From a delta proteobacterium ML8_F1 (GTDB lineage: Bacteria; Bacillota; Clostridia; Peptostreptococcales; Acidaminobacteraceae): 43,164 bases of DNA. Location of the stretch: NCBI GenBank assembly GCA_002029975.1, contig LQBE01000041.1, positions 1 through 43,164 on the forward strand, read 5' to 3'. Below the pieces are notes generated by a model. That model saw only the letters and a program-made list of their open reading frames with translations, had not been told where the DNA came from and searched no databases. Shown here one piece after another: positions 1,009-30,105 of the stretch (the first letter of the stretch is position 1; each line of letters begins with the position of its first letter). A program made the translations under genes and the position numbers.

Positions 1009-1488
1009 ATGTTGGAAATTATCAAACTCTATATTTCTCTGATAATATTCTGGATATTGTTGACGGTTTCTGTGTCATTCAGCAATCTGGTCTACGGCAT
1101 GATTTTCAGTGGCATCATTGCCTTTTATTCCTATCGTCTGCAAAAGCAAAACAAGATAATCCTTCCCCGCCTCGGGGTCTTGATCCGCTACAGCCTCTTT
1201 CTGGTGGTTGAAATCCTTCTGTCGTCCGTCAGGCATATCGGCAGGATTCTCAAAAGTCAAGAGGAGAGGATTGTCTTCATCGAAATCGGGCTCAGGGGCC
1301 TGAGTGAATTTGAAGCTGTAATGGCGGCGAACTTCATCACCCTGACGCCGGGAACGGTTACTGTGAACCTGGCGGATCACAGGATTACAGTAGTGACCAT
1401 GCTCTCTGAAGGGGAGGATGCCCGGGTCGTCAAAAACAGTCTGGAGAAAATCTTCTCCCGGATCTTTGGGAGGCGCATGGCGATATGA
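1009..1488 (+). CDS. mnhE: Na+/H+ antiporter subunit E (MnhE/MrpE/MbhA-like)
   Basis: This 159-residue membrane protein is the E subunit of an Mrp-type antiporter. The first 70 residues form two or three hydrophobic helices. The soluble C-terminal part contains the family hallmark AANFITLTPGTVTV, followed by a short alpha/beta domain. GGAGGGG precedes the ATG. It opens an eight-gene run of tightly packed or overlapping genes, and its stop overlaps the ATG of the next gene. The order E-F-G-MbhD-MbhE-B-C-D is that of the ion-translocating module in Mbh and Mbx complexes, not that of the classical mrpABCDEFG operon. Confidence 0.88.
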   Translation: MLEIIKLYISLIIFWILLTVSVSFSNLVYGMIFSGIIAFYSYRLQKQNKIILPRLGVLIRYSLFLVVEILLSSVRHIGRILKSQEERIVFIEIGLRGLSEFEAVMAANFITLTPGTVTVNLADHRITVVTMLSEGEDARVVKNSLEKIFSRIFGRRMAI

Positions 1489-1739
1489 TTTTGCAAATTA
1501 CCATGGGACTGCTGCTGATGGCCATCGGCATCTTTGTTTTAAGGCTGATTCTGATCAAGAACATTCATGACAAGCTTCTCAGTCTCAATCTGTTGACCAT
1601 CAAGGTGGTTCTCCTCCTGGCGGTCTATGCCGCTTATGAGGAGAGTCCCTTCATTTTGGATATCGTGTTGGCTTCAAGTCTGGTCGGCTTTATTGCCACA
1701 GCGGTGCTCATTGTCTATATTGGAAGGAATGATGTCTGA
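1485..1739 (+). CDS. mnhF: Cation/H+ antiporter subunit F (MnhF/MbhB-like)
   Basis: This small hydrophobic protein of 84 residues has three predicted membrane helices. The pattern of a helix, a short polar NIHDKLLSLN loop, two further helices and a charged C-terminus is that of MnhF/MrpF. The ATG overlaps the stop codon of the E gene by four bases, and the next gene starts on the last base of this stop, so translation of all three is probably coupled. Subunit F is a structural part of the Mrp membrane arm with no known catalytic residues. Confidence 0.85.
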   Translation: MILQITMGLLLMAIGIFVLRLILIKNIHDKLLSLNLLTIKVVLLLAVYAAYEESPFILDIVLASSLVGFIATAVLIVYIGRNDV

Positions 1740-2026
1740 TGACCTCGCTGCTCCTGATGCTGTCTTGGCTATTTATTGTTTTCGGGATGATTGGTATATT
1801 CAAGTTCAAAAGCTTCTACGGGCGGTTGATCACTTCAAGCAAGATTGATTCGGCTGCGCTTCTTCTAATCCTGACCGGCCTCGCCCTCTATAGGCAGGAT
1901 ATGTATTACACCTCCCGGTATTTCATGATTCTGCTGTTTATGTTCATCACCAACCCGGTGACCACGCATTTGATTGCAAAGAAGAGACACAAGGAGGATA
2001 AGTCATGGAAATCATCATCATCGTGA
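1739..2026 (+). CDS. mnhG: Cation/H+ antiporter subunit G (MnhG/MbhC-like)
   Basis: This is a 95-residue protein with three membrane helices. It fits MrpG/MnhG by length, by position after F, and by the GMIGIFKFKSFYGRL stretch, which matches the G-x-G-hydrophobic-x-R/K-F-x-D/S-x-Y-x-R-L signature around the first helix boundary. The start overlaps the preceding TGA by one base, and the end overlaps the following gene by 22 bases. No catalytic function is known for G alone; it belongs to the antiporter membrane arm. Confidence 0.83.
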   Translation: MTSLLLMLSWLFIVFGMIGIFKFKSFYGRLITSSKIDSAALLLILTGLALYRQDMYYTSRYFMILLFMFITNPVTTHLIAKKRHKEDKSWKSSSS

Positions 2027-2544
2027 CTCTCCTCGGTTTGCAGATGGTCTTGATGCTGGCGCTGATTTTTGAAAAGAATCTCTACATCGGAGTCCTCTAC
2101 CTGACGATTTCTTCTGTAATTGTCTCCCTTTTGTACCTGATGTTCAATGCGCCGGACATTGCCCTGGCCGAAATCGCCGTGGGCTGTGCCTTGATTCCTT
2201 TTGTCTATATCATCGCCATCACCAAGCAAAAGGACTTTCTGGTGGTGGACGAGGTGATGGATGACTATTCACGTGAGATCATTGAGGAGATCCGACTTTT
2301 CTGCCAGGAGGAACAACTCAGGCTCAGACTCATGTATGCGGGTCTGGAAAACGAGTTCAGTCTCAAGGAGGTTTTTCGGGGCAGCAATATCGACATGGTG
2401 ATCAGCCGGCCCAGGGAAGCCTACCGCTTGACTTCAAAGGAATCTTCCTCCGTCAACGACCGGCTGATGGCTCGTTTGAAGCAGCGCAAGGATCCCCTCA
2501 GACTAGAATTCATGAGGACGGGTGAAAATGTTCATGAAGATTAA
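2005..2544 (+). CDS. MbhD-like DUF4040 antiporter subunit with long C-terminal extension
   Basis: The first 80 residues carry three hydrophobic helices and the MbhD/DUF4040 signature around NAPDIALAEIAVGCALIPFVYI, matching the C-terminal helices of MrpA. A conserved acidic residue in this region is important for ion transfer in the family. Unusually, the protein continues for about 100 polar, charge-rich residues (about 80-179). The equivalent subunit in the second antiporter module of this window (24604-24858) is only 84 residues long. The tail has no motif I recognise and probably forms a cytosolic domain. The gene overlaps its neighbours on both sides. Confidence 0.8.
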   Translation: MEIIIIVTLLGLQMVLMLALIFEKNLYIGVLYLTISSVIVSLLYLMFNAPDIALAEIAVGCALIPFVYIIAITKQKDFLVVDEVMDDYSREIIEEIRLFCQEEQLRLRLMYAGLENEFSLKEVFRGSNIDMVISRPREAYRLTSKESSSVNDRLMARLKQRKDPLRLEFMRTGENVHED

Positions 2545-5435: not shown

Positions 5436-5575
5436 TGAGTGGATTCGAAATAATGTCTGGCAGATGAGGACAATCATACGGCATACAGATGAAAAAAACT
5501 TGTTTTTGGAAATCATAGCAGAGGTTCTTTTGCTGTGGTTTGATAAGGATAAAACGGGTGATGGAGGGAAGGTCT

Positions 5576-7429
5576 ATGAAATCGATTAGAGGGAAAATGC
5601 TGGTTTGGTTTGGTATGTCACTGCTTATCCTGCTGACGGCTTCCGGAGTGGTGGTGTACAGGGAGGTGGATGACGCAGTGACTCCTCTAACAAAGCATCT
5701 CAGTCAGGAGGTCTTGATTGCCAGGTCCGCTGAAATCGGCAGATTGTTGGAGGGATATGTCAACGAAGTCACCATCATGTCACGACGGGACCTCATTCGC
5801 AGAGGGGATATGGAGGAAATTGAGTCGGACCTGATGGCCCAGGCGGACCTCATCAACAGTGACTACGAGATTTTGTTCTATGCGGACCGTGACGGCAACT
5901 ATGTCACCACCCAGGGAAAACGGGGAGATGTCAGGAATCGAGACTATTATAAGGCTATTATGCTGGGAGAACACAGTTACTATATCAGCGAGCCGGTGGT
6001 TTCCTATTCAACCGGTGCCAGGATGCTTGTAGTGGCGAGGGCGGTCTACGACGACCGTGGGGAAAAAACGGGAATCATGGCGGCAACGGTTCTCTTGAAG
6101 ACACTCTCAGAAATTGCCGGGGCCATTGAAATCGGTGAACAGGGTTTTGGATATATCGTCGACCGGACCGGACTGCTGATTGCCTATCCCGAGGATGAAC
6201 TGGTGATGACCATGAATTATCTGGAATCTGAGGAATGGGGCTATCAGGGACTTGAGGAAATCGGAGAACGCATGCTGGACGGGATGCCGGGACTGATGAC
6301 CTATGAAAATCCCAATGGCGAAAAACTGGTTACTGTCTTCAATCCTATCCCGGGAACCCCCTCCTGGACCCTGGGAATCTCTCTTTACGAAGATGAACTG
6401 ATGGGGCCGGCCATGAATCTCATGCGCCAGGTGGTCCTTTTGATGAGCGGTATCCTGGGTATCGTCCTCTTGGTGGTCTTCATCATCTCAAAACGAATTA
6501 CAACTCCGATTCTCGCTTTGAAAGAGGGGGTCAGAATTGTCAGCGCCGGGAATCTCGAGCATGTTCTTGAAATCAGGACGGGTGATGAGATTGAGGAACT
6601 GGCAGACGACTTCAGTAAGATGAAGACGGACCTGATGGATTACATCGAAAACCTGAAGAAAACGACGGCGGAAAAAGAACGGATCCAAAGTGAACTGGAG
6701 GTGGCGAATAAAATCCAGACCAGCATGCTCCCCCGCATATTTCCTCCCTACCCCAATATGGCGAATCTGGATTTATACGCCACTATGGAGCCGGCCAAGG
6801 AGGTGGGGGGAGACTTCTATGATTTTTTTCTGATTGATGACCATCGATTGTGTTTCAGTATCGGAGACGTTTCTGGAAAAGGAATCCCTGCCGCCCTCTT
6901 TATGGTGATTACCAGGACTATCCTGAAAAACCTGGTTCTGCAGGGGAATTCAATGCCGGACATCTTTTTCAAAACCAATAACCTGCTTTGCTCCGACAAT
7001 GAAGAAAATATGTTTGTCACGGTATTCATGGGGATCCTCGATACGAGAACCGGTGAACTGGAATATATCAGTGCGGGTCACAATCCGCCCCTTGTTTCAC
7101 GGGAGGGCAGGGATTTTGAATTTCTCAAGGTGAACCACTATCTGGTACTGGGAGGGATGGAGGACTACCGATATGATTCTCTTACGACTGTCTTGAAGCC
7201 CCGTGACCGGTTGTTTGTCTATACCGACGGTGTTTCTGAGGCGACCAATGGTCAGAATGAACTTCTTGGAGACGGCCGCATGGTGGCAGCGGCCAATCGC
7301 CTGGTGAACAGGGACGTCAGGGGAATCATTGCGGGAATGAGGGAAGAGATTGACCGTTTTGTCCTGGATACGCCGGCTTCTGATGATGTCACCATGCTGG
7401 CTTTGATGCTCCTTGAGGCGGAAGCCTAG
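5576..7429 (+). CDS. Membrane sensor SpoIIE-type serine phosphatase (dCache-HAMP-PP2C)
   Basis: A 617-residue membrane-anchored phosphatase. TM1 (about 8-28) and TM2 (about 286-306) flank an extracellular PAS-like dCache domain containing NRDYYKAIMLGEHSYYISEPVVS, typical of small-molecule sensors. A HAMP domain (about 307-360) and a coiled coil follow. The C-terminal PPM/SpoIIE phosphatase (about 380-615) shows metal-binding motifs GGDFYD (D413), GDVSGKGIPAALFM and the terminal SDDVTML. The ATG at 5576 is chosen because GGAGGG lies 7 bases before it; a TTG at 5540 would add 12 residues. Its likely substrate is the phosphorylated STAS protein encoded at 14966. Ligand unknown. Confidence 0.9.
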   Translation: MKSIRGKMLVWFGMSLLILLTASGVVVYREVDDAVTPLTKHLSQEVLIARSAEIGRLLEGYVNEVTIMSRRDLIRRGDMEEIESDLMAQADLINSDYEILFYADRDGNYVTTQGKRGDVRNRDYYKAIMLGEHSYYISEPVVSYSTGARMLVVARAVYDDRGEKTGIMAATVLLKTLSEIAGAIEIGEQGFGYIVDRTGLLIAYPEDELVMTMNYLESEEWGYQGLEEIGERMLDGMPGLMTYENPNGEKLVTVFNPIPGTPSWTLGISLYEDELMGPAMNLMRQVVLLMSGILGIVLLVVFIISKRITTPILALKEGVRIVSAGNLEHVLEIRTGDEIEELADDFSKMKTDLMDYIENLKKTTAEKERIQSELEVANKIQTSMLPRIFPPYPNMANLDLYATMEPAKEVGGDFYDFFLIDDHRLCFSIGDVSGKGIPAALFMVITRTILKNLVLQGNSMPDIFFKTNNLLCSDNEENMFVTVFMGILDTRTGELEYISAGHNPPLVSREGRDFEFLKVNHYLVLGGMEDYRYDSLTTVLKPRDRLFVYTDGVSEATNGQNELLGDGRMVAAANRLVNRDVRGIIAGMREEIDRFVLDTPASDDVTMLALMLLEAEA

Positions 7430-7627: not shown

Positions 7628-8023
7628 ATGAAATTGGAAGAATTGATGAAAAATGAAGGAGAAAGGTTCAGCTCGAAGATCAGGGAGTTGGATTCCGTGG
7701 AAGCCTTTATGGCTTACCTGGCGGAAATGGGTGTTGTCATGACGCCTGAGGAGGAAGAGCGGGCGAAGGGACTTATGGTCAAAAACAGGAAGGGGAAGGC
7801 CCTGTCTGACGATGAACTCGACCAGATCAGCGGCGGTGGATTCTACAAACCCATCAGCAATTGTCCCAACGGGCATTCGAAATTTGTGCTTTGGTTCGGG
7901 ATGGGCAGTGTAGGGGTGGTTGATGACAATTGCAAGAATTGTCCCCATGTCAAAAAGAGCATGGGACCCAACGGTTGGGATCTGGTTTGTCAGAACATCG
8001 GCAATGAAACGATTTGGGAGTAG
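7628..8023 (+). CDS. Nif11-like leader peptide precursor 1 (Cys4 core)
   Basis: A 131-residue ribosomal peptide precursor. Residues 1-70 form an acidic, helical Nif11-like leader ending LSDDELDQISGG, the double-glycine site for a C39 peptidase. The 61-residue core has four cysteines, at 79, 102, 105 and 121, including CKNCPH, giving C-x22-C-x2-C-P-H-x14-C. The ATG at 7628 is chosen over a TTG at 7622 because GAGGGGG lies 8 bases before it. It is the first gene after the shared promoter element and the first of four precursors in a row. No modifying enzyme is nearby. The final activity is unknown. Confidence 0.8.
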   Translation: MKLEELMKNEGERFSSKIRELDSVEAFMAYLAEMGVVMTPEEEERAKGLMVKNRKGKALSDDELDQISGGGFYKPISNCPNGHSKFVLWFGMGSVGVVDDNCKNCPHVKKSMGPNGWDLVCQNIGNETIWE

Positions 8024-8092
8024 GTGTAGATTGGGGAAAAGGGTTGACCGGCAGTCCAGGCAGCAGAAAGTTAAAAATCAAGGAGTCGAACA

Positions 8093-8482
8093 ATGAAGGA
8101 AAATATCAGAGTCTATATCAAGAAACTGGCAACCGACAAGGCATTGCAGGAAAAAATTCAAAAGGCTGGAACCTTGGGTGAAATCGTCACCATCGCCAGA
8201 GAAGACGGGTTTGACTTCACCGAAGAAGAATGGAGCTCCCAGGCATCCCCTATCCGGGAGGAGACCTTGGCGGATGACGAACTGGACCGGGTGACCGGGG
8301 GCTGGCTGGGGGGGCTCATCGACAATTGTCCAAAGACCTATAATTACTACTTGTGCTATTTGTCCTGGTGCCCCCATCTGAAGTACGAGTATATTTCCGG
8401 GAGTGAAGACAAATACCGGGCCCGATGCAATAACGGGCACTTCCACGGGGTTGAAATCACCATCAATGTGCCGAGTTGTTAG
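8093..8482 (+). CDS. Nif11-like leader peptide precursor 2 (Cys4 core plus C-terminal Cys)
   Basis: A 129-residue precursor whose leader (1-70) is a clear Nif11 domain, with LQEKIQKAGTLGEIVTIARE and DGFDFTEEEW, ending LDRVTGG. The 59-residue core contains cysteines 79, 88, 93, 112 and 129. The middle part reads CYLSWCPH, giving C-x8-C-x4-C-P-H-x16-C, with an extra terminal cysteine. A second GG at 73-74 makes the exact cleavage site uncertain. AGGAG precedes the ATG. The leader closely resembles that of precursor 4, while the cores agree mainly in the cysteine frame. Confidence 0.85.
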   Translation: MKENIRVYIKKLATDKALQEKIQKAGTLGEIVTIAREDGFDFTEEEWSSQASPIREETLADDELDRVTGGWLGGLIDNCPKTYNYYLCYLSWCPHLKYEYISGSEDKYRARCNNGHFHGVEITINVPSC

Positions 8483-8494
8483 GAGGAGAGTTCA

Positions 8495-8881
8495 ATGTCA
8501 AATGAAAGAATGGAAGCTTTGATCAAGAAAATGAATGAGGATGAGGATTTCTTAAGGCGCTTCAACCAGGCCGGTAACCTCCATGAAAAAATGGCTGTCG
8601 CCAAGACGGCGGGGCTGCTGATGCAGCCTGAGGATCTTCAGGAATCCACTGGGTCCCTGTCTGAGGAGGAACTGCAGGAGATAACGGGGGGTCAGGGAAA
8701 TTACAATTTCGAGGAGTTATATATTTGTGAATGTACAGATTGCGGGTGGAGCAGAACAGTCAGACTCACGCAGTCGGACGGGGGCTTGATGAAGGCTGGA
8801 CAACTACTCATGGTCCATAGAAACGCGACAGGCCACCTCAACAACGGCATTCGACGTGAAATTGAGCATTTCTTTGAGTAA
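8495..8881 (+). CDS. Nif11-like leader peptide precursor 3 (C2H2-like core)
   Basis: A 128-residue precursor. The leader (1-66) is Nif11-like and ends LSEEELQEITGG. The 62-residue core differs from its neighbours: C78-x-C80-x2-C83 is followed by GW and, 24 residues after C83, by H108-x5-H114. A C-x2-C ... H-x5-H arrangement of this length is typical of small zinc-binding fingers, so a metal-bound core is plausible. AGGAGGA precedes the ATG, 12 bases after the stop of precursor 2. The mature function is unknown. Confidence 0.8.
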   Translation: MSNERMEALIKKMNEDEDFLRRFNQAGNLHEKMAVAKTAGLLMQPEDLQESTGSLSEEELQEITGGQGNYNFEELYICECTDCGWSRTVRLTQSDGGLMKAGQLLMVHRNATGHLNNGIRREIEHFFE

Positions 8882-9072
8882 CAAGTTCATTATGCGGTGG
8901 CTGGTCTGAGTTTTCTCCGGCAAAAGGATGGGGGGAAGAGCTGGAATATGAAAAAATCAGCGATGGTGTATCTGAAGAGGAACACTCCATAGCGAACCCC
9001 TGGGCCCGGGAGCAAAAAACCGGATTTTTAAAGTTTCTGGCCTCGCCATGAAAAAAATAAGGAGTGAAGAAG
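8882..9072. other. Intergenic stretch between precursors 3 and 4, possible precursor remnant
   Basis: About 190 bases without an intact gene. One forward frame is open from 8882 to a TGA at about 9051 but has no ATG with a ribosome binding site. It encodes EELEYEKISDG and SEEEH, which loosely resemble the acidic end of the double-glycine leaders next to it. It may be a decayed precursor. The evidence is weak. Confidence 0.25.
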
Positions 9073-9429
9073 ATGACAGAAAATATCGTAGCCTTTGTCA
9101 TGGGAATGAACGCCGACGGGGCCTTGAGGGAAAAGTTTTTTCAGGCAGAGAATGTTGCGGCCATTGTGGCCCTGGCCAGGGAAGAGGGGTTTGATTTTAC
9201 TGAAACCGAGTGGGAATCAAAGGTGGGAGAAAAGCCTCAGGGCGTCTTGTCGGAGGAGGAACTGCTTCAAGTGACAGGGGGGGCCGCCCCGCCAGACTGT
9301 CTTCAAACCTTCAGCATCCTGCACTGTGCCATCAACATGTGCCCTCACTTGTACTTAGGGTATGACAAGATCAATCGGATATCCACAGTCAATTGTGAAG
9401 CGGGTTATTTCACAAACTCTCCGGTCTAG
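9073..9429 (+). CDS. Nif11-like leader peptide precursor 4 (Cys4 core)
   Basis: A 118-residue precursor. The Nif11 leader (1-70), with AIVALAREEGFDFTETEW, ends LSEEELLQVTGG. The core (71-118) has cysteines 76, 85, 90 and 108, arranged C-x8-C-x4-C-P-H-x15-C, the same spacing class as precursor 2. The ATG at 9073 is used because AAGGAG lies 8 bases before it; a GTG at 9064 is too close to that site. The following 260 bases are non-coding and hold a weak hairpin before the exporter genes. Confidence 0.85.
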   Translation: MTENIVAFVMGMNADGALREKFFQAENVAAIVALAREEGFDFTETEWESKVGEKPQGVLSEEELLQVTGGAAPPDCLQTFSILHCAINMCPHLYLGYDKINRISTVNCEAGYFTNSPV

Positions 9430-9501
9430 TGAAGATGCAGGGGTTTTTCCTGGACCTTCCTAGAGGACTAAGAGGAACTGTCCTTCGCCGCTTTTATCGG
9501 A

Positions 9502-9525
9502 CCGTCCTGTCTTGACGGCGGTTTT
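9502..9525 (+). terminator. Weak hairpin between precursors and exporter genes
   Basis: CCGTC (9502-9506) and GACGG (9514-9518) form a short stem with a 7-nt loop, followed by CGGTTTT. It could act as a leaky terminator that keeps exporter transcription below precursor transcription. The rest of 9430-9691 shows no gene and no second copy of the shared promoter element. Confidence 0.35.
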
Positions 9526-9691
9526 GAGGGAGACGATTCTGTATTTCTGTGATGCCTATGGTTTCCCTCCTGTAGGCTTGTAGAATTCATCAGGGCCGGG
9601 GCTTGAGCATCATTGAGTTTTTCAGGAAGAAGAATCAATGTCTGGCAAGGCGGCGGGAATCAAATAGAATCAATCACGGAAGGTGGGGCCA

Positions 9692-10270
9692 ATGGAAAAC
9701 AGCATCTTTAGAAAGAGTTCCCTGGAGAAGATTTCTTCCCCGGAACAGTTGAACGAATATGTCAAGGTGACAAGTGGCGGCATCTGGCTGCTCTTAATCG
9801 CCCTGTTCGCTCTGATCATTTCAGTGGGAACCTGGGCTTTCATCGGTACGATTCCCGAAACCGTCGAAGTCAAGGGAATCGCCTATGAGGGCATATCGAA
9901 GGAGCAAATGGTCTATGCCTATGTCCCCATGGAGGTCGTCAGACGAATGCGGGAGGGAATGACGGTCCAGCTTTCACCGGAATACGCCCCCAGGGAGGAA
10001 TATGGCTATGCCCTGGGGGTCATCCAGTCCATTGGACAGAACCCAGTGATGGAAGAGGAGATTCTAAACACCTTTGGCAGTCTGCAGTGGGTGAAAAGCA
10101 TTATACCAGAGGGCAATCCCGTGGCCATCACGATTCGCTACCAGATGGACAAGGGTGAACTCCAGTGGTCGAGCTCTTTGGGCCGTGAAATTGAAATCAG
10201 CAATGGTGCCTACGTCAATATTTCTGTCATCACGAAGGAGAGAAAGCCTTATGAATTGCTACTGCGATAG
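9692..10270 (+). CDS. NHLM-type secretion adaptor, short HlyD-like protein
   Basis: A 192-residue protein with an N-terminal cytosolic segment, one membrane helix (about 30-52, GGIWLLLIALFALIISVG) and an external beta-rich domain. It contains a VEVKGIAYEG lipoyl/barrel-like opening and a late YVNISVITKERKPYELLL end. This is the pattern of the secretion protein that accompanies NHLM ABC exporters. It is much shorter than classical HlyD and lacks a long coiled coil, which fits a cell without an outer membrane. The ATG at 9692 follows GGAAGGTG by 6 bases. The ABC exporter begins 17 bases downstream. Confidence 0.75.
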   Translation: MENSIFRKSSLEKISSPEQLNEYVKVTSGGIWLLLIALFALIISVGTWAFIGTIPETVEVKGIAYEGISKEQMVYAYVPMEVVRRMREGMTVQLSPEYAPREEYGYALGVIQSIGQNPVMEEEILNTFGSLQWVKSIIPEGNPVAITIRYQMDKGELQWSSSLGREIEISNGAYVNISVITKERKPYELLLR

Positions 10271-10287
10271 GTCAGGCAGGTGGGAGA

Positions 10288-12426
10288 ATGGCTAATATTG
10301 CCAAAGTGCCGGTGATTCTGCAAATGGAAGCGCTCGAATGCGGGGCAGCCGCCCTGTGCATGGTACTGGCCTACCACGGGAAATGGCTCCCCCTGGAGAA
10401 GGTTCGTGCCGATCTGGGGGTGTCCAGGGATGGTTCGAGTGCCAAGAGCATTGTCCGGGCCGCCCGGGCCTACGGGCTAAAAGCCGTGGGATTCCGAATG
10501 GAACCCCGGATGCTTTCCCAGATGCCGCTACCCGCCATCATTCACTGGAACTTCAATCATTTTGTTGTATTCAACGGCTATAAAAAAGATAAGGCGGTAA
10601 TCAATGATCCCGCCAGGGGGACCGTGGAGGTGCCCATGGAGGAATTTGACCATTCTTTTACCGGAATCGTCCTGCAGTTCGAGAAGGGAAAGGATTTTGT
10701 TCCCCAAGGGAAGCCGCCGAGTGTTCTGGGATTTGCCAGAAAGCGACTTGAGGGAACCCTGTCGGCTTTCACATTCGTGGTGTTCACGGGGATTCTGGTG
10801 GCTTTTATCGGCGTGGTGAGTCCGTTGTTTTCAAAGGTGTTCATGGATTACATCCTCTCAGGAAAGAATCCGGAATGGCTCTTTCCCTTTACGCTGGCTT
10901 TCCTCCTCATGATTCTCTTTCAATTCGTGGTGGGGATTATCGAGGCGCACTATTGGCTTCGGATTGAAGGAAGATTCGCCATTACGGCCAATTCTCAGTT
11001 CATGTGGCATGTTCTGAGACTGCCCGTGGAGTTTTTCTCCCAGCGCTATGCCGGGGATATCGTTTCCAGACTCTCCTCCAATGAACAAATAGCCAGCACC
11101 TTGATCCGTCAACTGGCACCAGTCTTTATGAACGTGGTGCTGCTGGTCGTTTATCTGACCATCATGCTCCAGTACAGCTGGATATTGACCGTGATCGGTC
11201 TGGGGGCGGCCCTGCTGAATATGGCGCTGATGCGTTATTCAGCCAGAAAACAGGTGGACCTGAGCCGGTCCCTCCAGGCCAGTGGCGGGAAACTGGCCGG
11301 TGTGACCATGTCCGGCATCATGATGATTGAAACCATCAAGGCGGCGGGGGCGGAGCGTGGATTCTTCGAGCGCTGGGCGGGTTATTTTGTAAAGGATCAC
11401 AATGCCCGGGTGCAAAATACCATTTTCGGCCTTTATTACAATACAATCCCCCAATTTCTGCAACAAGTGACCAGCATCGCCATTCTCATGATCGGCGTTT
11501 ATTTCATCATGGAGGGGGATTTCACCATCGGGATGCTTCTGGCTTTCCAGGGTTTTCTGGGGTCCTTCATGTCACCGGTGAACCAGTTGATCGGCGCCGG
11601 CCAGAGTTTTATTACCATGAGGTCTTCCATGGAACGGGTTCAGGACGTCATGAATTACCAGACGGATACCACGGACGGGCAGGTTGAGGATCTTTCTGCG
11701 GGCAAACTGGCGGGTGAAATACAAATCAATAATCTGGTCTTCGGCTACAATCCGCTGTCGGAACCATTGATCAGGGATTTTTCAGTTTCCTTGAGGCCCG
11801 GTTCGACCGTCGCCTTTGTCGGCGGCAGCGGCAGCGGCAAATCAACACTGGCAAAACTGATTGCGGGACTCTATGACCCGTGGAGCGGTGAAATGCTTTT
11901 TGACGGAAAAAAAAGACAGGAGCATTCCGATTACATATTCAAGAACTCTCTGGCCATGGTTGACCAGGACATCACCCTCTTTGAGGACACCGTGGCCAAC
12001 AATATCCGTCTTTGGGATGCCTCCATCGAGGATTTTGCCGTAATCATGGCCGCCAGGGATGCGGATATTCATGAAGCCATCATTTCCCGGAGGGAGGGGT
12101 ATGACAGTATTCTTCAAGAGGGGGGCAAGAACTTTTCCGGTGGTCAGCAGCAGCGGATTGAGATTGCCCGGGTCCTGGCCCAGGAGCCCACCATCATCAT
12201 TCTAGACGAAGCGACCAGCGCTCTGGACGCCAAGACGGAGGAAGAGGTCATGAATAATATCCGTAACATCGGTGCGACCTGCATCGTCATCGCCCACCGC
12301 TTGTCAACGATCAGGGATTGCGATGAAATCCTGGTCCTGGACAAGGGAATCGTGGTGGAGCGGGGGACCCATGATCAATTGTATGCCCTGGGAGGGAAAT
12401 ACGCCGAACTTGTCACGAGTGAATAA
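10288..12426 (+). CDS. NHLM-type ABC exporter with C39 peptidase domain
   Basis: A 712-residue exporter that should cut leaders after the double glycine and move the cores out of the cell. The N-terminal C39 peptidase (about 1-130) has the catalytic Cys in ALECGAAAL, the His in NHFVVF and the Asp in NDPARG. About six membrane helices follow (about 150-440). The nucleotide-binding domain (about 480-712) has Walker A GGSGSGKST, signature FSGGQQQR, Walker B IIILDEATSALD and AHRLS. It is encoded between the adaptor and a second ABC protein, as in other NHLM cassettes. Its substrates are very likely the five precursors here. Confidence 0.92.
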   Translation: MANIAKVPVILQMEALECGAAALCMVLAYHGKWLPLEKVRADLGVSRDGSSAKSIVRAARAYGLKAVGFRMEPRMLSQMPLPAIIHWNFNHFVVFNGYKKDKAVINDPARGTVEVPMEEFDHSFTGIVLQFEKGKDFVPQGKPPSVLGFARKRLEGTLSAFTFVVFTGILVAFIGVVSPLFSKVFMDYILSGKNPEWLFPFTLAFLLMILFQFVVGIIEAHYWLRIEGRFAITANSQFMWHVLRLPVEFFSQRYAGDIVSRLSSNEQIASTLIRQLAPVFMNVVLLVVYLTIMLQYSWILTVIGLGAALLNMALMRYSARKQVDLSRSLQASGGKLAGVTMSGIMMIETIKAAGAERGFFERWAGYFVKDHNARVQNTIFGLYYNTIPQFLQQVTSIAILMIGVYFIMEGDFTIGMLLAFQGFLGSFMSPVNQLIGAGQSFITMRSSMERVQDVMNYQTDTTDGQVEDLSAGKLAGEIQINNLVFGYNPLSEPLIRDFSVSLRPGSTVAFVGGSGSGKSTLAKLIAGLYDPWSGEMLFDGKKRQEHSDYIFKNSLAMVDQDITLFEDTVANNIRLWDASIEDFAVIMAARDADIHEAIISRREGYDSILQEGGKNFSGGQQQRIEIARVLAQEPTIIILDEATSALDAKTEEEVMNNIRNIGATCIVIAHRLSTIRDCDEILVLDKGIVVERGTHDQLYALGGKYAELVTSE

Positions 12427-12475
12427 GCCTTGAAGTCGGCGGAATCAACAGAAAATCGAAGGCGAGGTTGTTTCG

Positions 12476-14653
12476 ATGGATTTTAATATATTTGATGAAC
12501 AACTGAATACACGCAGGCAGAACGATCAAAGGATGTTTGAAGAGGCTTTTTCAGACCTGGCTTCAGTTTTGGGAATGGCCACCCACAGGGGACCCCGGAG
12601 CGAAAAGGAACAGCTGATAAAAAGTGCTCTTGAGGAGATTCTGGGTTATTACGGCGCCGTGGCAGCGGAGGTTCCGGAATACATTACCGATCTGGACGCC
12701 CGGTTTGAATACATGCTCCGGCCAACGGGCATCATGAGGCGGAGGGTGGAATTGGTGGGTGACTGGTGGAAGGATGCCAACGGGGCCATACTGGCCGGCA
12801 CTTCAGAAGGGGTTGCCGTCGCCATCATGCCGGGAAAATGGTCCGGCTACGGTTATACGGAGCCGGCCACGGGGAAATACATCAAGCTCAACAAGGAAAC
12901 TGCCAGAGAGATTGAGCGGGAGGGCTTCAGTTTTTACCGGCCTCTGCCGGCCAGAGAGCTCAAGGTCATCGATATAGGTCACTACATGATGAAAAGCATC
13001 AGTTTGAGTGATGTTCTTTTTGTCATGGCGGTCAGTCTGGTCATTTCATTGTTGGGTTTGTTCACTCCCTTTATCAACAAGCAGATATTCGATGGTATTA
13101 TTCCGTCAGGCATCACGGGGAATATCCTGCCCATCGCTGTCCTGATGGTCGGGGTGGGGATTGGCACGACTATTTTTGGCATGACCCGAAGTCTCTTGCT
13201 GGCGAGGTTTCAGGATAAAACGAATTTTGTTCAGATTGCCATCATGATGAGGATTTTCAGTCTACCCACTTCTTTTTTCAAGCAGTATTCAGCGGGAGAA
13301 CTGAGCAGCCGTGTGATGAGCGTCAACAACCTGGCCGCCATGATTTCCGGCGGGGTCATGACCACAGGGTTGACGGCCCTGTTTTCCTTCGTTTACATTT
13401 TTCAGATGGTCAACTATGCACCGGTTCTCGTCGTCCCTGGATTGACAATCATCGGCGTCTCTTTGGCCTACACCCTGATGACAACCCTGATGGAAGTGAA
13501 GAGTGTGAGAATCCGGATGAATCTGTCGGCCAAGCTGTCAGGGCTTGTCTACGCCCTGCTGAACGGTGTTCAGAAGATTAAGCTTGCCGGGGCGGAGAAG
13601 AGGGCCTTTGCCAGGTGGGCGTCTCTGTACTCAAAACTCGGGAAACGCCAGTATTCACCTCCCCCCATCAGGCGCTACAAAGTGGCGATTTCGACCCTGA
13701 TCACCATGACAGGAACCCTGGTGCTTTATTTTATGGCGGGTCAATCCGGGATCTCCCCGGCGGATTACATCGCCTTCTCTATGGCCTACGGAGCAGTGAG
13801 CAGTGCCACCATGGCCCTGGGCGGCATTGCATCGAACGTGGCAACCATTCGGCCCATGCTGGAAATGGCCCGACCCATCATGGAAACACTCCCGGAGCAA
13901 ACGGAGAACAAGCGCATCGTGACTGCCTTATCCGGGAATTTTGAAGTCAATAACGTCACCTTTCGGTATGATTCCGACGGTCCCGTCATCATTGATGAAC
14001 TGAACTTCAGGGTCCGAAGTGGGGAGTACGTGGCCATTGTAGGCAAAACCGGCAGCGGCAAGTCCACCCTGATGCGGCTGCTGCTGGGGTTCGAAAAGCC
14101 GGAAACCGGAGCGGTCTACTATGACGGTCATGATCTTGAAAGTCTGGATCTTCAGTCGACCCGGCAGAACATCGGCGTGTCTTTGCAAAACGGCAGGTTG
14201 TTTCCGGGGGATATTTTTTCCAACATCATCGTGACAGCTCCCTGGAAGACCCTGGATGACGCCTGGGAGGCGGCCAGACTCGCGGGAGTGGACAAAGAAA
14301 TCGAGGCCATGCCCATGGGAATGCACACCTTGATCAGTGAGGGGAGTGGCGGTGTGTCGGGAGGTCAGCGTCAACGATTGCTCATTGCCCGCGCCCTGGT
14401 GGCCAAGCCGAAGATTATTTTCTTCGACGAGGCGACTTCGGCGCTGGACAACCTCACCCAGAAGCATGTCGCTCAGAGTCTTGAATCTCTAAAAGGCACC
14501 CGGCTTGTGATTGCCCACAGGTTGTCGACGATTCGCCACTGTGACAGGATTATCGTGTTGGATAGGGGAAAATGCGTCGAAGAAGGGGATTATGAGACGC
14601 TGATGGCTAAAAAAGGGACCTTTTTTGAACTGGCAAAAAGGCAAATTCTGTAA
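12476..14653 (+). CDS. NHLM-type second ABC exporter (no peptidase domain)
   Basis: A 725-residue ABC protein. The first about 160 residues form a soluble domain of unknown fold unlike the C39 peptidase, with no catalytic Cys/His pair. The membrane domain (about 175-460) and nucleotide-binding domain (about 490-725) follow, with Walker A GKTGSGKST, signature VSGGQRQR, Walker B IIFFDEATSALD and AHRLS. In NHLM systems this protein is always paired with the peptidase exporter and may form a heterodimer with it. The start follows the previous stop by 49 bases. The role of the N-terminal domain is not known to me. Confidence 0.9.
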   Translation: MDFNIFDEQLNTRRQNDQRMFEEAFSDLASVLGMATHRGPRSEKEQLIKSALEEILGYYGAVAAEVPEYITDLDARFEYMLRPTGIMRRRVELVGDWWKDANGAILAGTSEGVAVAIMPGKWSGYGYTEPATGKYIKLNKETAREIEREGFSFYRPLPARELKVIDIGHYMMKSISLSDVLFVMAVSLVISLLGLFTPFINKQIFDGIIPSGITGNILPIAVLMVGVGIGTTIFGMTRSLLLARFQDKTNFVQIAIMMRIFSLPTSFFKQYSAGELSSRVMSVNNLAAMISGGVMTTGLTALFSFVYIFQMVNYAPVLVVPGLTIIGVSLAYTLMTTLMEVKSVRIRMNLSAKLSGLVYALLNGVQKIKLAGAEKRAFARWASLYSKLGKRQYSPPPIRRYKVAISTLITMTGTLVLYFMAGQSGISPADYIAFSMAYGAVSSATMALGGIASNVATIRPMLEMARPIMETLPEQTENKRIVTALSGNFEVNNVTFRYDSDGPVIIDELNFRVRSGEYVAIVGKTGSGKSTLMRLLLGFEKPETGAVYYDGHDLESLDLQSTRQNIGVSLQNGRLFPGDIFSNIIVTAPWKTLDDAWEAARLAGVDKEIEAMPMGMHTLISEGSGGVSGGQRQRLLIARALVAKPKIIFFDEATSALDNLTQKHVAQSLESLKGTRLVIAHRLSTIRHCDRIIVLDRGKCVEEGDYETLMAKKGTFFELAKRQIL

Positions 14654-14669
14654 AGGGGGATCAGGGAAG

Positions 14670-14951
14670 ATGGACCAGCAAAGGAAGTTCAAAGTGGGTA
14701 GTGAAAAGATGAATCAGCCTGATTCTTCAGCAACACTCACAGAGCATGATCTCGACACCGTAACTGGAGGTATGCAATCTCCCGTCAGCGGAAAACGCAT
14801 TGTGAACGGGTCCTACAGCTGTGAGAGGTTTGAAGTCAGGGAGGGAGTTGATCCCAATATGATGGGTACGAAATGCTGCAGTTACTGTCGACACAAGAAC
14901 TGGGAAGGCACCTACATGGTCTGCAACCTTCCCGTGAATGAAAAAAAGTAA
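14670..14951 (+). CDS. Precursor 5: short-leader double-glycine peptide (Cys-rich core)
   Basis: A 93-residue peptide with a short leader (1-34) ending LTEHDLDTVTGG, the same end as the Nif11 leaders but without their helical domain. The core (35-93) has cysteines 51, 69, 70, 73 and 85 and contains CCSYCRH, so C-x18-C-x2-C-R-H-x10-C parallels precursor 1. The ATG at 14670 follows AGGGGGA at 14654 by 9 bases; an ATG at 14709 is possible but would leave a leader of about 21 residues. It lies 16 bases after the second ABC gene, apart from the other precursors. Confidence 0.72.
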   Translation: MDQQRKFKVGSEKMNQPDSSATLTEHDLDTVTGGMQSPVSGKRIVNGSYSCERFEVREGVDPNMMGTKCCSYCRHKNWEGTYMVCNLPVNEKK

Positions 14952-14965
14952 AGTCAAGGAGGAAT

Positions 14966-15274
14966 ATGTCCATGAAAATCACCACGACTATGGAGGGAAG
15001 CAGGGCCCGCTTAGAGCTTGAAGGAAGACTTGATACGGTGACCAGCGGCCAGCTGGCCGCTGAACTGGGGCGTCTCTTTGAAGGGGAAGCCCTCGGATTG
15101 CTTTTCGATTTTCGAGAGTTGGAGTACATCAGCAGTGCCGGACTCAGGGTGCTGTTGACCGCTCAGAAAAAAGTCAAATCCCTCGGGACGGAACTCGAAA
15201 TCGCCAATGTCAATGAATCCGTCAGAGAGGTATTCGACATAACAGGATTTTCCGGGATTCTTACTATTTTGTAA
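14966..15274 (+). CDS. STAS-domain anti-sigma factor antagonist
   Basis: A 102-residue single STAS domain. The phosphorylation site region is LEYISSAGLRVLL, with Ser57 matching the phosphorylated Ser of SpoIIAA/RsbV. The typical strand FDFREL precedes it. In the family, the unphosphorylated form binds the RsbW/SpoIIAB kinase and releases its target. The downstream gene is such a kinase and the phosphatase at 5576 is the likely activator, so the cassette encodes a full partner-switching set. AAGGAGGA lies upstream of the ATG. Confidence 0.9.
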   Translation: MSMKITTTMEGSRARLELEGRLDTVTSGQLAAELGRLFEGEALGLLFDFRELEYISSAGLRVLLTAQKKVKSLGTELEIANVNESVREVFDITGFSGILTIL

Positions 15275-15310: not shown

Positions 15311-15724
15311 TTGAAAAAATTAAGAGTTAAAGCGAAGATTGAAAATTATGAAATGTGTGCCGCTTTCATTGAAGAACAGCTGGAAGAAAAAGAATTTGAT
15401 CGAAAATCAATCATCAAGGTGGTCACTGCTTGTGAGGAAATTATTGTCAATGTGATGAATTATGCCTATGATGATGGAGAGGGAGATCTGGAAATTGCCT
15501 TTGAGGACGGGATGGACTATGTCTCTATCACCTTCATCGATGAAGGGGCACCCTTCAATCCCTTCGAACAGCCTGCAATCAATGTGAATCTCGACTTGGA
15601 AGAGCGGGAAGTCGGGGGGTTGGGCATCCTGATGGTGAAAAGCATGATGGATGACATGCATTATGAGTACAAGGGAAAGCAGAACAGACTCACCATCAAG
15701 AAGTTTCTGGACAGGAAGTTCTAG
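15311..15724 (+). CDS. RsbW/SpoIIAB-like anti-sigma serine kinase (HATPase)
   Basis: A 137-residue GHKL ATP-binding protein. The N-box EEIIVNVMNYAYDD, the G1 box FIDEGAPFNPF and the G2 box GGLGILMVKSMMDDMHYEY are all present, as in RsbW-type kinases that phosphorylate STAS partners. The start is TTG, with AGGAG ending 10 bases before it. It is the last plus-strand gene of the cassette and lies 36 bases after the STAS gene. No sigma factor is encoded in the window, so the protein it controls is unknown; it may be a sigma factor elsewhere or a non-sigma partner. Confidence 0.88.
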   Translation: MKKLRVKAKIENYEMCAAFIEEQLEEKEFDRKSIIKVVTACEEIIVNVMNYAYDDGEGDLEIAFEDGMDYVSITFIDEGAPFNPFEQPAINVNLDLEEREVGGLGILMVKSMMDDMHYEYKGKQNRLTIKKFLDRKF

Positions 15725-15843: not shown

Positions 15844-16548
15844 TCACCGGGAGGCGAACCGGTATCCGACTCCCCGGACTGTTTCAATGATATCCGGGTG
15901 GAGGTCGTTTTCCTCGAGTTTTTTGCGCAGACGACGAATGTGGACGTCTACTGTACGGGTTTCATTGAACTGGTCTTCATGCCAGATGGTGTCGAGAAGA
16001 TTATCCCGGGTGAAAACCCGGCCAGGGTGATTTGCCAGCAGGCTCAGGAGTTCAAATTCCAGATAGGTCAGGGGGATTTCACCCTTTTTTCCTGTGACAA
16101 TCCTAGACTCCAGGTCAATCTGAATCCCTAAGGGAAACAGGTGACTGGTTCTGTGTCGGGGGTCGTATGAACTGCGTGCAATCAATTTTTTCAATCTGGT
16201 CAGGAGTTCGTGGTAGCGAACGGGCTTGAAAAGATAGTCGTCCGCCCCCATCTCAAGGCCGAGAACAGTTTCAATTTCACTGTCTTTAGAAGTCAGCATG
16301 ATGACAGGCAGGGCTTTGTACTGAGGATGTTCCCGAATCCTCCTGAGGATCTCAAGGCCGTCCATGCCGGGCAGGACAATGTCAAGGATGGCGGCATCGA
16401 AACTGCTGTGATCCATCGACAAAAGAGCCTCTTCCCCTGAGGCGAGTATCGTAGTCAGATACCCATTTTTGTTTAGGGCAGGCTTAATAAGCCTGCCGAT
16501 GGACGAATCATCTTCAACAACAAGGATATGTTTTTTCAAAAGAATCAC
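15844..16548 (-). CDS. OmpR/PhoB-family response regulator
   Basis: A 234-residue two-domain regulator. The receiver domain (about 5-120) has the acidic pair in VVEDD, the phospho-acceptor Asp56 in AAILDIVLPGMDG, the conserved Thr in IMLTSKD and the Lys in LFKPVRY. The C-terminal winged helix (about 135-232) has the typical LTYLEFELLSLLANHPGRVFTRDNLL and RTVDVHIRRLRKKLEEN recognition helix. The start may be GTG at 16548 or TTG at 16539; neither has a strong ribosome binding site. It diverges from the giant hybrid kinase gene and is its most likely phosphorelay partner. It is also a candidate for binding the shared promoter element; that is inference. Confidence 0.9.
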   Translation of the reverse strand: MILLKKHILVVEDDSSIGRLIKPALNKNGYLTTILASGEEALLSMDHSSFDAAILDIVLPGMDGLEILRRIREHPQYKALPVIMLTSKDSEIETVLGLEMGADDYLFKPVRYHELLTRLKKLIARSSYDPRHRTSHLFPLGIQIDLESRIVTGKKGEIPLTYLEFELLSLLANHPGRVFTRDNLLDTIWHEDQFNETRTVDVHIRRLRKKLEENDLHPDIIETVRGVGYRFASR

Positions 16549-24611: not shown

Positions 24612-24858
24612 TCTCATGGTGTTAGAAATAATGGTTGCACTGCTATTGATCCTCCTGTCCCTTTTAGCGATTTTTTCTAAGAAGCTCATCACTGCCATTA
24701 TCTATCTTTCTATTGTCAGCATGCTGGCTGTGCTCAGCTTTGCCCTGATGAAGGCGCCTGATGTCGCCATCACAGAAGCGGTCATCGGTTCGGGGCTTGT
24801 CACCGCCGTCTTCCTTTTCACCCTGTTCTCGATGAGAAAGGAGGGAGAAAAAGAATGA
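24604..24858 (+). CDS. mbxD: MbhD/MbxD-like DUF4040 subunit
   Basis: An 84-residue protein with three helices and the DUF4040 motif ALMKAPDVAITEAVIGSGLVTAVFL, including the family's conserved acidic residue. The ATG at 24604 is chosen because AAGGAGG ends 9 bases before it; the in-frame ATG at 24595 touches that site. It is of normal length, unlike its 179-residue counterpart at 2005. Confidence 0.85.
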   Translation: MNSLMVLEIMVALLLILLSLLAIFSKKLITAIIYLSIVSMLAVLSFALMKAPDVAITEAVIGSGLVTAVFLFTLFSMRKEGEKE

Positions 24859-25598
24859 AAAGAATTTTTGCTTTGGTGCTGGTGGCTGTTGTGGGAATAC
24901 TCCTTTTTTCAGGGATTTACTCAATGGAAGGCTTTCCCCGTTACGGTGAGGCTGAGGTTTCTGAAAGAGTTTCAATGTCCTATATCGACAAAAACGTGAC
25001 ACGGGAGAATCAAGAGGTGGTTTTCGGTGTTTCAGAGAATCTGGAAACCGGTTCTGCCAATATCGTAACCTCCATCATTGTCAATTACCGGTCTTTTGAC
25101 ACCCTGGGAGAGGTCACCGTCCTTTTTGTTTCAGCCCTTGGGGTATCGCTTCTGTTTGGATCCTTTGAAGGGAGATTGCGGTCCCGGTATAAACCAAACT
25201 TCATTTTAAGGACTGGATCAAAGGTGGTTTTTCCGCTGATTCTGGTTATGGGGGCGTATATTTTCATCCATGGTCATCTGTCTCCGGGAGGTGGATTCCC
25301 CGGCGGGAGCATGATTGCCTCCGCTATTCTCCTGATGTACCTGGCTGATGAGGATTTCCGTGTCAGAATAGATGATTTCAAGAAGACTGAGGGCATCGCC
25401 GGTGCCATGTATGTGCTTCTCGGCCTGGTGGGACTGATGATATCCAATTATTTCCTGAGCAATTTCCTGGACACGGGAACGGTGGGGACCTTGTTCAGTG
25501 CCGGGATAATACCGGTTGTTTACGTTCTGGTAGGTTTGAAGGTCGGGTCTGAACTGACAGGCATTATCACGGATTTTTTGAAAGGGGAGGTGGAGTAG
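24855..25598 (+). CDS. mbxF: Fused MbhE-MnhB antiporter subunit (MbxF-like)
   Basis: A 247-residue fusion. The N-terminal half has a helix, an external loop and SANIVTSIIVNYRSFDTLGEVTVLFVSALGV, the MbhE/MrpA-end segment. The C-terminal half is MnhB-like, with GAYIFIHGHLSPGGGFPGGSMIASAILL and three more helices. In Pyrococcus mbx a separate E gene is also missing. In the first operon of this window the two parts are separate genes (2528 and 2863). The ATG overlaps the previous stop by four bases. Confidence 0.87.
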   Translation: MKRIFALVLVAVVGILLFSGIYSMEGFPRYGEAEVSERVSMSYIDKNVTRENQEVVFGVSENLETGSANIVTSIIVNYRSFDTLGEVTVLFVSALGVSLLFGSFEGRLRSRYKPNFILRTGSKVVFPLILVMGAYIFIHGHLSPGGGFPGGSMIASAILLMYLADEDFRVRIDDFKKTEGIAGAMYVLLGLVGLMISNYFLSNFLDTGTVGTLFSAGIIPVVYVLVGLKVGSELTGIITDFLKGEVE

Positions 25599-25599
25599 G

Positions 25600-25944
25600 A
25601 TGATTCAATATGCCGGTATCATGCTCATCCTCATTGGAATCTACGGGCTGCTGACACAGTCCAATATCATAAAAATCATCGTCTCCCTCAATATTTTTGA
25701 ACTGGGACTGAATGTGTTCATCATCTCTGTAGGCTTTGTCAGGGAAGGCATTGCCCCCATACTCACTTCGGTTAACAATCACAACGGGCTGGTCTTTGTC
25801 GATCCCCTTCCCCAGGCCCTGGTCCTCACGGCCATTGTCATCGGACTGGGAACGACGGCCCTGGGGCTGGCTTTTGCCAGAAGCATCTACAGGCAACACG
25901 GCACCTTGAATCTTGATGAGATAGGAGGGCCCTCAAATGGTTAA
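25600..25944 (+). CDS. mbxG: NuoK-like antiporter subunit C (MnhC/MbxG-like)
   Basis: A 114-residue NuoK-like protein with three helices. GLLTQSNIIKIIVSLNIFELGLNVF and DPLPQALVLTAIVIGLGTTALGLAF are the conserved MnhC/NuoK segments, including the membrane acidic residue in IFELGLN. It starts two bases after the MbxF-like stop and overlaps the next gene by eight bases. Confidence 0.9.
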   Translation: MIQYAGIMLILIGIYGLLTQSNIIKIIVSLNIFELGLNVFIISVGFVREGIAPILTSVNNHNGLVFVDPLPQALVLTAIVIGLGTTALGLAFARSIYRQHGTLNLDEIGGPSNG

Positions 25945-29197: not shown

Positions 29198-30105
29198 ATC
29201 TTGTGAATTTTGCCTATGGCTTGTTGCTCCTCCTGGCGGCCTTTGTCTTTCAGACGACCCTTACGGGGATCAACCGCAAGGTGGTGGCCCGTCTTCAAAG
29301 GCGGAGAGGGCCGAAGTTCTACCAGCAGTTTATCGACATATTCAAGGCTTTGAGCAAGGGTTCCACCACCCATGGCTGGGTTTTTGACTTTGGCGTCATC
29401 ATGGCCCTGGGAGGCATCATGGCCACAGCAATTTTCATTCCCTTCGGACCGCTGAAGGCGGTGCCGGGGATGGACAATATCTTTATTATCGCCTATGTTC
29501 TGGCGGTAGGAATGCTGGGCATGGCCATGAGTGCTTCAGGCTCGGGCAATCCCTGGGCCAGCATCGGCGTCAGCCGGGCCCTGACCAATATGCTGGCCTA
29601 TGACATTCCCTTTATGATGGTGGTTTTCGGCCTGATTTTCGCCTTTGACAGCTCCTCCCTTTCAGGGCTTGCCGCAATCCAAAGAGAAGGGGGCCTCCTG
29701 GGCTGGAATGTTCTGCGTTTCCCCCTTGGAGGCATTGTCGCCATGATTTCCCTGCAGGGAATGCTCGGAAAAAAACCCTTCGACTCCTTTATTGCCCCGG
29801 CGGAAATCGCTTCCGGGCCCATGGTGGAGTATGGCGGAAGACACCTGGGAATGCTGTTTTTGCTCCATGAATACTCCACCTTTATCGAGGTTTCCCTGAT
29901 TGTCCATCTCTTCTTCGGAGGCGGGGCCACGGTACTGGAATTCATGGTGAAATACGCAGTGATCTATACCTTCTTGAATCTGGTGTCCAATGTTCTTCCC
30001 CGGTTCAAGATTGACCAGGCAGTGACCTTTTTTTACAAGGTTCCCCTGGCCATGGCCGTGGTTCAAACCTTCTTGATAATCTTCCTTGGAATGGGGGTAG
30101 CATAA
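29194..30105 (+). CDS. mbxM: NuoH-like membrane subunit (HycD/MbxM-like)
   Basis: A 303-residue protein with about eight helices, the membrane anchor that links the redox arm to the ion-pumping arm. The NuoH signature RRRGPKFYQQFIDIFKALSKG and the later KKPFDSFIAPAEIASGPMVEYGGR, with its conserved acidic residues near the quinone-like cavity, are present. The ATG at 29194 overlaps the preceding stop and has GGGAGGTG upstream; an upstream in-frame start would add 16 residues that overlap the previous gene. Confidence 0.9.
   Translation: MNLVNFAYGLLLLLAAFVFQTTLTGINRKVVARLQRRRGPKFYQQFIDIFKALSKGSTTHGWVFDFGVIMALGGIMATAIFIPFGPLKAVPGMDNIFIIAYVLAVGMLGMAMSASGSGNPWASIGVSRALTNMLAYDIPFMMVVFGLIFAFDSSSLSGLAAIQREGGLLGWNVLRFPLGGIVAMISLQGMLGKKPFDSFIAPAEIASGPMVEYGGRHLGMLFLLHEYSTFIEVSLIVHLFFGGGATVLEFMVKYAVIYTFLNLVSNVLPRFKIDQAVTFFYKVPLAMAVVQTFLIIFLGMGVA

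Follow-up and report, generated by a model that had tools for sequence, protein, structure and literature searches.

Background

Precursors with Nif11-type leaders are usually taken as precursors of ribosomally synthesized and post-translationally modified peptides (RiPPs) whose tails vary fast. In Haft, Basu and Mitchell (2010; PMC2887384), Nif11-derived precursors (N11P, TIGR03798) adjoin an exporter of the TIGR03794/03796/03797 type, for example in Desulfitobacterium hafniense and Eggerthella lenta. The lah cluster, presented with its AMS/PCAT exporter LahT in an eLife 2019 article (PMC6363468), encodes nine Nif11-type precursors with diverse cores. Here, we describe a cassette of five small precursors with double-glycine (GG) leaders (P1 to P5) and an NHLM exporter (an HlyD-like protein, ABC1, and ABC2) in delta proteobacterium ML8_F1. 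The window, that is, the whole stretch of DNA that was analyzed, comprises positions 1 to 43,164 of the forward strand of contig LQBE01000041.1 (assembly GCA_002029975.1). In four of the five precursors, the part following the leader (the core) carries a common pattern of cysteines and one histidine.

The cassette resembles the N11P systems (PMC2887384) in its GG-ended Nif11 leaders, its several paralogues, and its adjoining exporter. It differs from them in having domain-like cores with counterparts in relatives, no maturase having turned up for it, and in its P1, a marginal Nif11 match, and P5, which is devoid of the Nif11 domain. With the AMS/PCAT exporters (LahT, PMC6363468) it shares a C39 peptidase and an ABC exporter, but, unlike in the LahT system, no modifying enzyme was found in the window cassette. 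The radical S-adenosylmethionine (radical-SAM) Nif11 peptides (TIGR04064; PMC3023750) have the same types of leader and exporter, and P5-like cores of gut bacteria adjoin a radical-SAM gene, but no close copy of that enzyme was found in the window's genome. In the literature searched, mostly outside subscription journals and including the accessible parts of PMC2887384, PMC6363468, PMC3023750, and PMC11002830, we found no description of metal-binding Nif11 cores. The reading we favor, with a probability of roughly 0.5, is that the cassette encodes unmodified Cys4 mini-proteins exported by the NHLM system, with zinc the likelier holder of their fold.

Five GG-leader precursors and a recurring cysteine pattern

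All five precursors carry the leader end L..[DE]L..[VI].GG. The family models place P2 (TIGR03798 62.2 bits, PF07862 49.7 bits), P3 (39.0 and 24.3 bits), and P4 (TIGR03798 50.0 bits) over both Nif11 cut-offs; P1 is a marginal match (TIGR03798 E 4e-4, but 20.6 bits vs. a cut-off of 32.3), and the same TIGR03798 and PF07862 scans gave no match for P5. The P1 leader end scores 15.8 against TIGR01847, a bacteriocin leader model with a cut-off of 15.7, and the P5 leader gives a ComC-type match slightly under its cut-off (19.3 vs. 20.4). A purine-rich ribosome-binding site accompanies the GG leader end in each of P1, P2, P4, and P5, and the P4 frame can alternatively start at a GTG lying 9 bases further upstream. 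ABC1 scores 936.1 bits against TIGR03796 (cut-off 853.3) and contains a Peptidase_C39 domain (PF03412), and ABC2 scores 726.4 bits against TIGR03797 (cut-off 709.4). The HlyD-like protein stays below the TIGR03794 cut-off (111.5 vs. 156.2 bits), its C-terminal part giving the best stretch in a scan from 9683; at about 192 residues (window 9692-10270), it is less than half as long as the 421-position family model. The TIGR03793 profile had no match in the window's own genome, where the controls were equally silent.

The cores are 48-62 residues long, and those of P1, P2, P4, and P5 share the signature C..C-x(2-4)-C-[PR]-H..C. The window sequence bears out what the first-pass annotation had reported of this motif, including its coordinates and cysteines: the spacing is exactly C-x8-C-x4-C in P2 and P4 and contains C-x2-C in P1 and P5, the last cysteine follows the third after 11-18 residues (15, 18, 17, and 11 in P1, P2, P4, and P5, respectively), and the pattern lies after the GG leader ends, in the mature part. 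That annotation had omitted the extra cysteine of the P5 core (CCSYC) as well as core 3, whose CTDCGW..HRNATGH stretch (i.e. C-x2-C..H-x5-H) looks like a metal site too. In total, P1 and P4 have four core cysteines each, P2 and P5 five each, and P3 three. By composition, with the cysteine positions fixed, a histidine two residues after the third cysteine (+2) in all four cores has a probability of about 1.6e-6. Because this position was selected after the fact and P2 is a paralogue of P4 (BLASTP E 7e-25), the product of three composition fractions, 3-4e-5 for three cases, is the fairer figure. Shuffling gave 0.001-0.008 per core for the whole motif in the four cores, using an expression that limits the first gap to at most 20 residues and thus leaves P1 itself (gap 22) unmatched, so that no combined figure is used.

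Comparison with the sister species

The sister species (locus L037) has an ABC1 that is 95% identical to that of the window. It keeps P1, P3, P4, and P5; no counterpart of P2 was detected between its P1 and P3 genes, though the paralogue P4 is retained. All 16 core cysteines are retained (16/16), as are the three cysteines and three histidines of the P3 core; together with the latter, P1 His13 and P4 His14 make up five retained histidines outside the motif. The motif histidine itself is kept in none of the three orthologues, being replaced by Tyr in P1, Glu in P4, and Tyr in P5. The ratio of nonsynonymous to synonymous substitution rates (dN/dS) between the window and the sister is well below 1 for the cores (P1 0.17, P3 0.15, P4 0.31, and P5 0.12), compared with 0.25, 0.22, 0.23, and 0.11 for the respective leaders and 0.07 for ABC1. 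The cores are constrained, yet not uniformly more than the leaders.

Cysteines recur in wider families and the histidine does not

From an ABC1 scan of genome contigs, we took the best 80 of 593 confirmed loci and added 51 further exporter regions (L numbers denote exporter loci and G numbers genomes). Counting the own genome each time, matches over the TIGR03796 cut-off were present in 11 genomes among 198 from the order, 20 among 398 from the phylum, and 20 among 391 from the class. The GG-motif scan covered 132 exporter loci, window included, which may contain the same genome under two names (known pairs, L037 = G036 and L085 = G134). It yielded 169 plausible precursors in 65 of the 132 loci, and at least four cysteines were present in 84 cores of 36 loci. 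In a stricter set, which drew 103 cores out of 33 loci, 12 cores of 7 loci have C-x(2-4)-C-x-H, the window itself contributing 4 of them, and 32 cores have a double C-x2-C.

Three core families emerged around the window's precursors. In the alignment of 24 P5-like cores (A2), whose rows were chosen with the C-x2-C..C pattern and by judgement, C17 and Val11 are each present in 23, and C36, C39, and C51 in all 24, partly by selection; when P5-like cores were picked by the N-terminal motif alone, the C-x2-C..C module was present in 13 of 13. The histidine column of the same 24 cores holds Tyr (11), His (5), Asn (2), Trp (2), and one each of Leu, Phe, Gln, and Ala. The P5-family profile found one further GG precursor adjoining an exporter, in G542 (L222); among 391 random genomes of the class, the A2 profile matched in 9, this being the sole realistic match besides the own genome, and the A3 core profile matched in 5, with the own genome alone convincing. 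Nine cores make up the P2/P4-like family; L210 contributes four of them and L044 two. Three cysteines are present in all nine and the first cysteine in seven; the histidine is present in 7 of 9 (3 of 4 in L210), with the L044 cores having been chosen by eye for their C-x-H look, a criterion that played no part for the four cores of L210 or for the sister P4. P1-like cores were found in the window, the sister, and Dethiobacter (L046, 40% identical to the P1 core), all three with CPNGH and four cysteines, and their +2 residue is His, Tyr, and Phe, respectively; a more distant pair of cores, in L196, has a different layout.

The pattern is real, and its cysteine part recurs in relatives where its histidine part does not, apart from the P2/P4 family, in which the histidine is mostly kept. 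Two proposals of the first-pass annotation found no support in this comparison. A histidine ligand common to the four cores is contradicted by its loss in all three sister orthologues and its presence in 5 of 24 P5-like cores, and we rejected it as a common ligand; it is frequent in the P2/P4 family alone. A fold shared by the four cores finds no backing either, as the P1, P2/P4, and P5 families have no detectable mutual profile similarity, and a common ancestor of all cores was rejected on the same ground.

Searches of plasmids gave no match for P5 or P1, and those of phages none for P3; with P2, plasmid and phage searches gave Nostoc matches at the level of the leader alone. A different core class was seen at L050:14859-19294, where six GG precursors have very similar Cys/Gly-rich cores (CVC..GGGGG..CGC) and a partial radical-SAM gene adjoins.

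Maturases and possible modification in trans

Our maturase searches covered YcaO, LANC_like, and radical-SAM/SPASM families and did not extend to dehydratase models (LanB, LanM) or to further maturases. These searches found no maturase in the cassette, in line with the earlier claim, and no dedicated one in its genome; the CxxxCxxC signature was likewise missing from the longest window frames of at least 200 residues. YcaO and LANC_like were found in neither of the two genomes searched, and both families were detected in control genomes.

An alternative that we regard as unlikely is that the cysteines are substrates of a trans-acting radical-SAM maturase (of the thioether ranthipeptide or sactipeptide type), whose cassette copy was lost or never held. 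The own genome has 18 PF04055 matches and four of TIGR04085 (two over cut-off and two weak). In an NCBIfam scan of the resulting 19 frames (18 radical-SAM and one SPASM), the sole RiPP maturase over cut-off was the SCIFF maturase, which speaks for this alternative. Other named frames include MoaA, MiaB, RimO, lipoyl synthase, RlmN, HemW, HemZ, and lysine aminomutase; one frame falls narrowly under the cut-off for a tungsten-cofactor maturase (375 vs. 380), two have no family match at the limit used, and some others have matches below cut-off solely. Further in its favor, ten gut loci (L057, L064, L065, L066, L067, L074, L091, L092, L112, and L113) have a radical-SAM frame close to P5-like or zinc-ribbon-like cores, and L040 and L196 contain the RiPP radical-SAM C-methyltransferase TIGR03975 with a PoyD-type epimerase. 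Against it, none of the 19 own-genome frames passes TIGR03975 or is a close copy of the gut enzyme, the best long matches being about 24% identical. Moreover, the cassettes of the window and the sister have no detectable radical-SAM gene of the gut or TIGR03975 kinds, and the cysteine-rich loci L044, L046, L049, L210, and L221 have none of the searched radical-SAM genes nor the CxxxCxxC signature, other maturase classes not having been searched there.

The gut frames, from Oscillospiraceae and Lachnospiraceae, share 58-75% identity with two probes taken from this set and may represent an undescribed maturase type. Against NCBIfam models, the two probes score at best 100.7 and 124.8 bits, with a cut-off of 500. 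At L065:16665-18050 and L066:10759-12153, related radical-SAM proteins adjoin Nif11 Cys-rich cores, with counterparts in the other eight gut loci.

The peptides of the window are probably made without enzymatic modification in this genome. Export as unmodified mini-proteins, as proposed in the first-pass annotation, is plausible for this genome; since P5-like cores of gut Clostridia adjoin a radical-SAM enzyme, "unmodified" does not extend to the core family.

Possible metal binding, fold, and disulfides

In the reading that we favor, the C39 domain of ABC1 would cut the five small proteins after the GG motif, and the HlyD-like protein, ABC1, and ABC2 would carry the cores out, as their families suggest. 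The cores would be conserved mini-proteins rather than rapidly varying bacteriocin tails, possibly with a signaling or antibacterial role. In P1, P2, P4, and P5, the fold would be held jointly by the first cysteine, the C-x2-C or C-x4-C pair, and the cysteine closing a presumed beta-hairpin, with a zinc knuckle or Cys4 site as the most likely arrangement and two disulfides as the alternative; in P3, cysteines and histidines would take this role. The +2 residue is more likely a packing or second-shell residue than an obligatory ligand, because its identity changes among cores (Tyr or His in most P5-like ones).

Like zinc ribbons and knuckles, the window cores have C-x2-C pairs, and cores of some other exporter loci match ribbon models weakly: below-cut-off matches were obtained for 8 of 10 exporter-linked GG cores chosen for a zinc-ribbon look (best 2.9e-6). 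Unlike them, the window cores, compared by sequence alone, match no zinc family above chance. Sequence searches of the PDB with P5, P3, A2, and A3 yielded no convincing match; the top value for A2 (0.0017) belongs to repeated C2H2 fingers whose individual stretches are weak, and that for A3 (0.024) to the RNA-polymerase RPB9 zinc ribbon. In both AlphaFold models, the last cysteine ends the strand that follows the third cysteine, a hint that fits a knuckle and hairpin. Beyond this hint, and at the confidence values given below, structure prediction proved uninformative.

The same cysteines could instead form two disulfides after export, in unmodified peptides acting as a class II-like bacteriocin or a signal, a possibility to which we assign little weight. 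The four cysteines of P1 and of P4 would suit such a pairing, and the P1 leader end that passes TIGR01847 and the P5 leader that nearly reaches the ComC model also point in this direction; the five cysteines of P2 and P5 and the three of P3 argue against it. Moreover, C-x2-C is commoner in metal sites than in disulfide mini-proteins, and the relatives are largely anaerobic Clostridia, which we likewise count against disulfides.

Several results weigh against unmodified, zinc-held mini-proteins. A radical-SAM gene is present in 17 of 36 loci with Cys-rich cores vs. 2 of 29 without such cores, a table that is no more than indicative since it omits weak radical-SAM matches (L122, L184, L187-L190, L217, L220, L223, and L224) and counts contig ends or doubtful leaders among the Cys-rich loci without the gene (L076, L104, L121, L184, L199, L206-L208, and L212). 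A radical-SAM gene accompanies five of the eight zinc-ribbon-like cores (in L040, L064, L091, L096 with a partial one, and L113), and the two cores of L221, where no radical-SAM gene was detected, had no zinc match. No Pfam zinc family was found for the window cores (best E 0.19, for the P5 core; P1-P5 scanned as whole precursors). The two AlphaFold models are of low confidence (mean predicted local distance difference test 67 and 65), and PDB fold searches with both gave no significant match. The invariance of C36, C39, and C51 in A2 is circular because its rows had been chosen with the C-x2-C..C pattern. In the sister comparison, constraint is weaker on the P4 core than on the P4 leader (dN/dS 0.31 vs. 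0.23), and because 193 of 230 core residues are unchanged, retention of 16 of 16 cysteines by luck has a probability of about 6%; the sister alone is therefore weak evidence for constraint on the cysteines, and their case rests on the wider families.

That the common motif is a coincidence among unrelated Cys-containing cores, with family-specific patterns alone being real, is very improbable: the dissimilarity of the three families, the loss of the histidine in the sister, and the post hoc choice of its position would fit, but the composition figure of 3-4e-5 for three cases, the recurrence of the cysteine layout within families, and the presence of C..C-x2-C..C in relatives of both P1 and P5 stand against it.

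A broader and more tentative proposal, doubtful at present, is that clostridial NHLM exporters also serve unmodified zinc-binding mini-proteins with conserved cores, from several unrelated families and with Nif11 or short GG leaders, which would function as signals that hold metal, as toxins, or as scavengers of metal. In the cassette described here, the tails are constrained, Cys-patterned, and encoded without a maturase detectable by our searches; should they prove to be folded metal mini-proteins, some of the GG precursors adjoining NHLM exporters would have been assigned the wrong chemistry.

Cassette layout and neighboring genes

All cassette genes lie on the + strand, in the order P1-P4, HlyD-like, ABC1, ABC2, and P5 (Table 1).

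Table 1. Coordinates of the cassette and of the flanking regulatory genes in the window
Feature	Position	Strand	Description
P1 precursor	7628..8023	+	GG leader 70 aa; core 7838-8020, C9-P-N-G-H..C32-x2-C35-P-H..C51
P2 precursor	8093..8482	+	Nif11 leader; core 8303-8479, C-x8-C-x4-C-P-H..C
P3 precursor	8495..8881	+	Nif11 leader; core 8693-8878, C-x-C-x2-C-G-W..H-x5-H
P4 precursor	9073..9429	+	Nif11 leader; core 9283-9426; paralogue of P2
HlyD-like secretion adaptor	9692..10270	+	TIGR03794 below cut-off; shorter than family model
NHLM exporter ABC1	10288..12426	+	C39 peptidase, permease, and ATPase; TIGR03796, PF03412
NHLM exporter ABC2	12476..14653	+	Permease and ATPase; TIGR03797
P5 precursor	14670..14951	+	Short leader, end LTEHDLDTVTGG; core 14772-14948, C17..C35-C36-x2-C39-R-H..C51
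Sensor phosphatase, dCache-HAMP-SpoIIE	5540..7429	+	Possible partner-switch regulator of cassette
STAS anti-sigma antagonist	14966-15274	+	Family-model match
RsbW-like kinase	15311-15724	+	Family-model match

The cassette is flanked by the genes for the phosphatase, the STAS protein, and the RsbW-like kinase. Among the 132 exporter loci, window included, tblastn found homologues of the phosphatase at 44, of the STAS protein at 43, and of the RsbW-like kinase at 36; their occurrence at many exporter loci suggests that these exporters may be under partner-switch control. Genes of the Mrp/Mbh antiporter type lie on both sides of the cassette (window 1009-2544 and 24855-32265). At L210, which encodes the four P2/P4-like precursors, antiporter-like genes (28-30% identical) lie upstream of the exporter (L210:1257-5303), and a response regulator is 57% identical to that at window 15844-16548.

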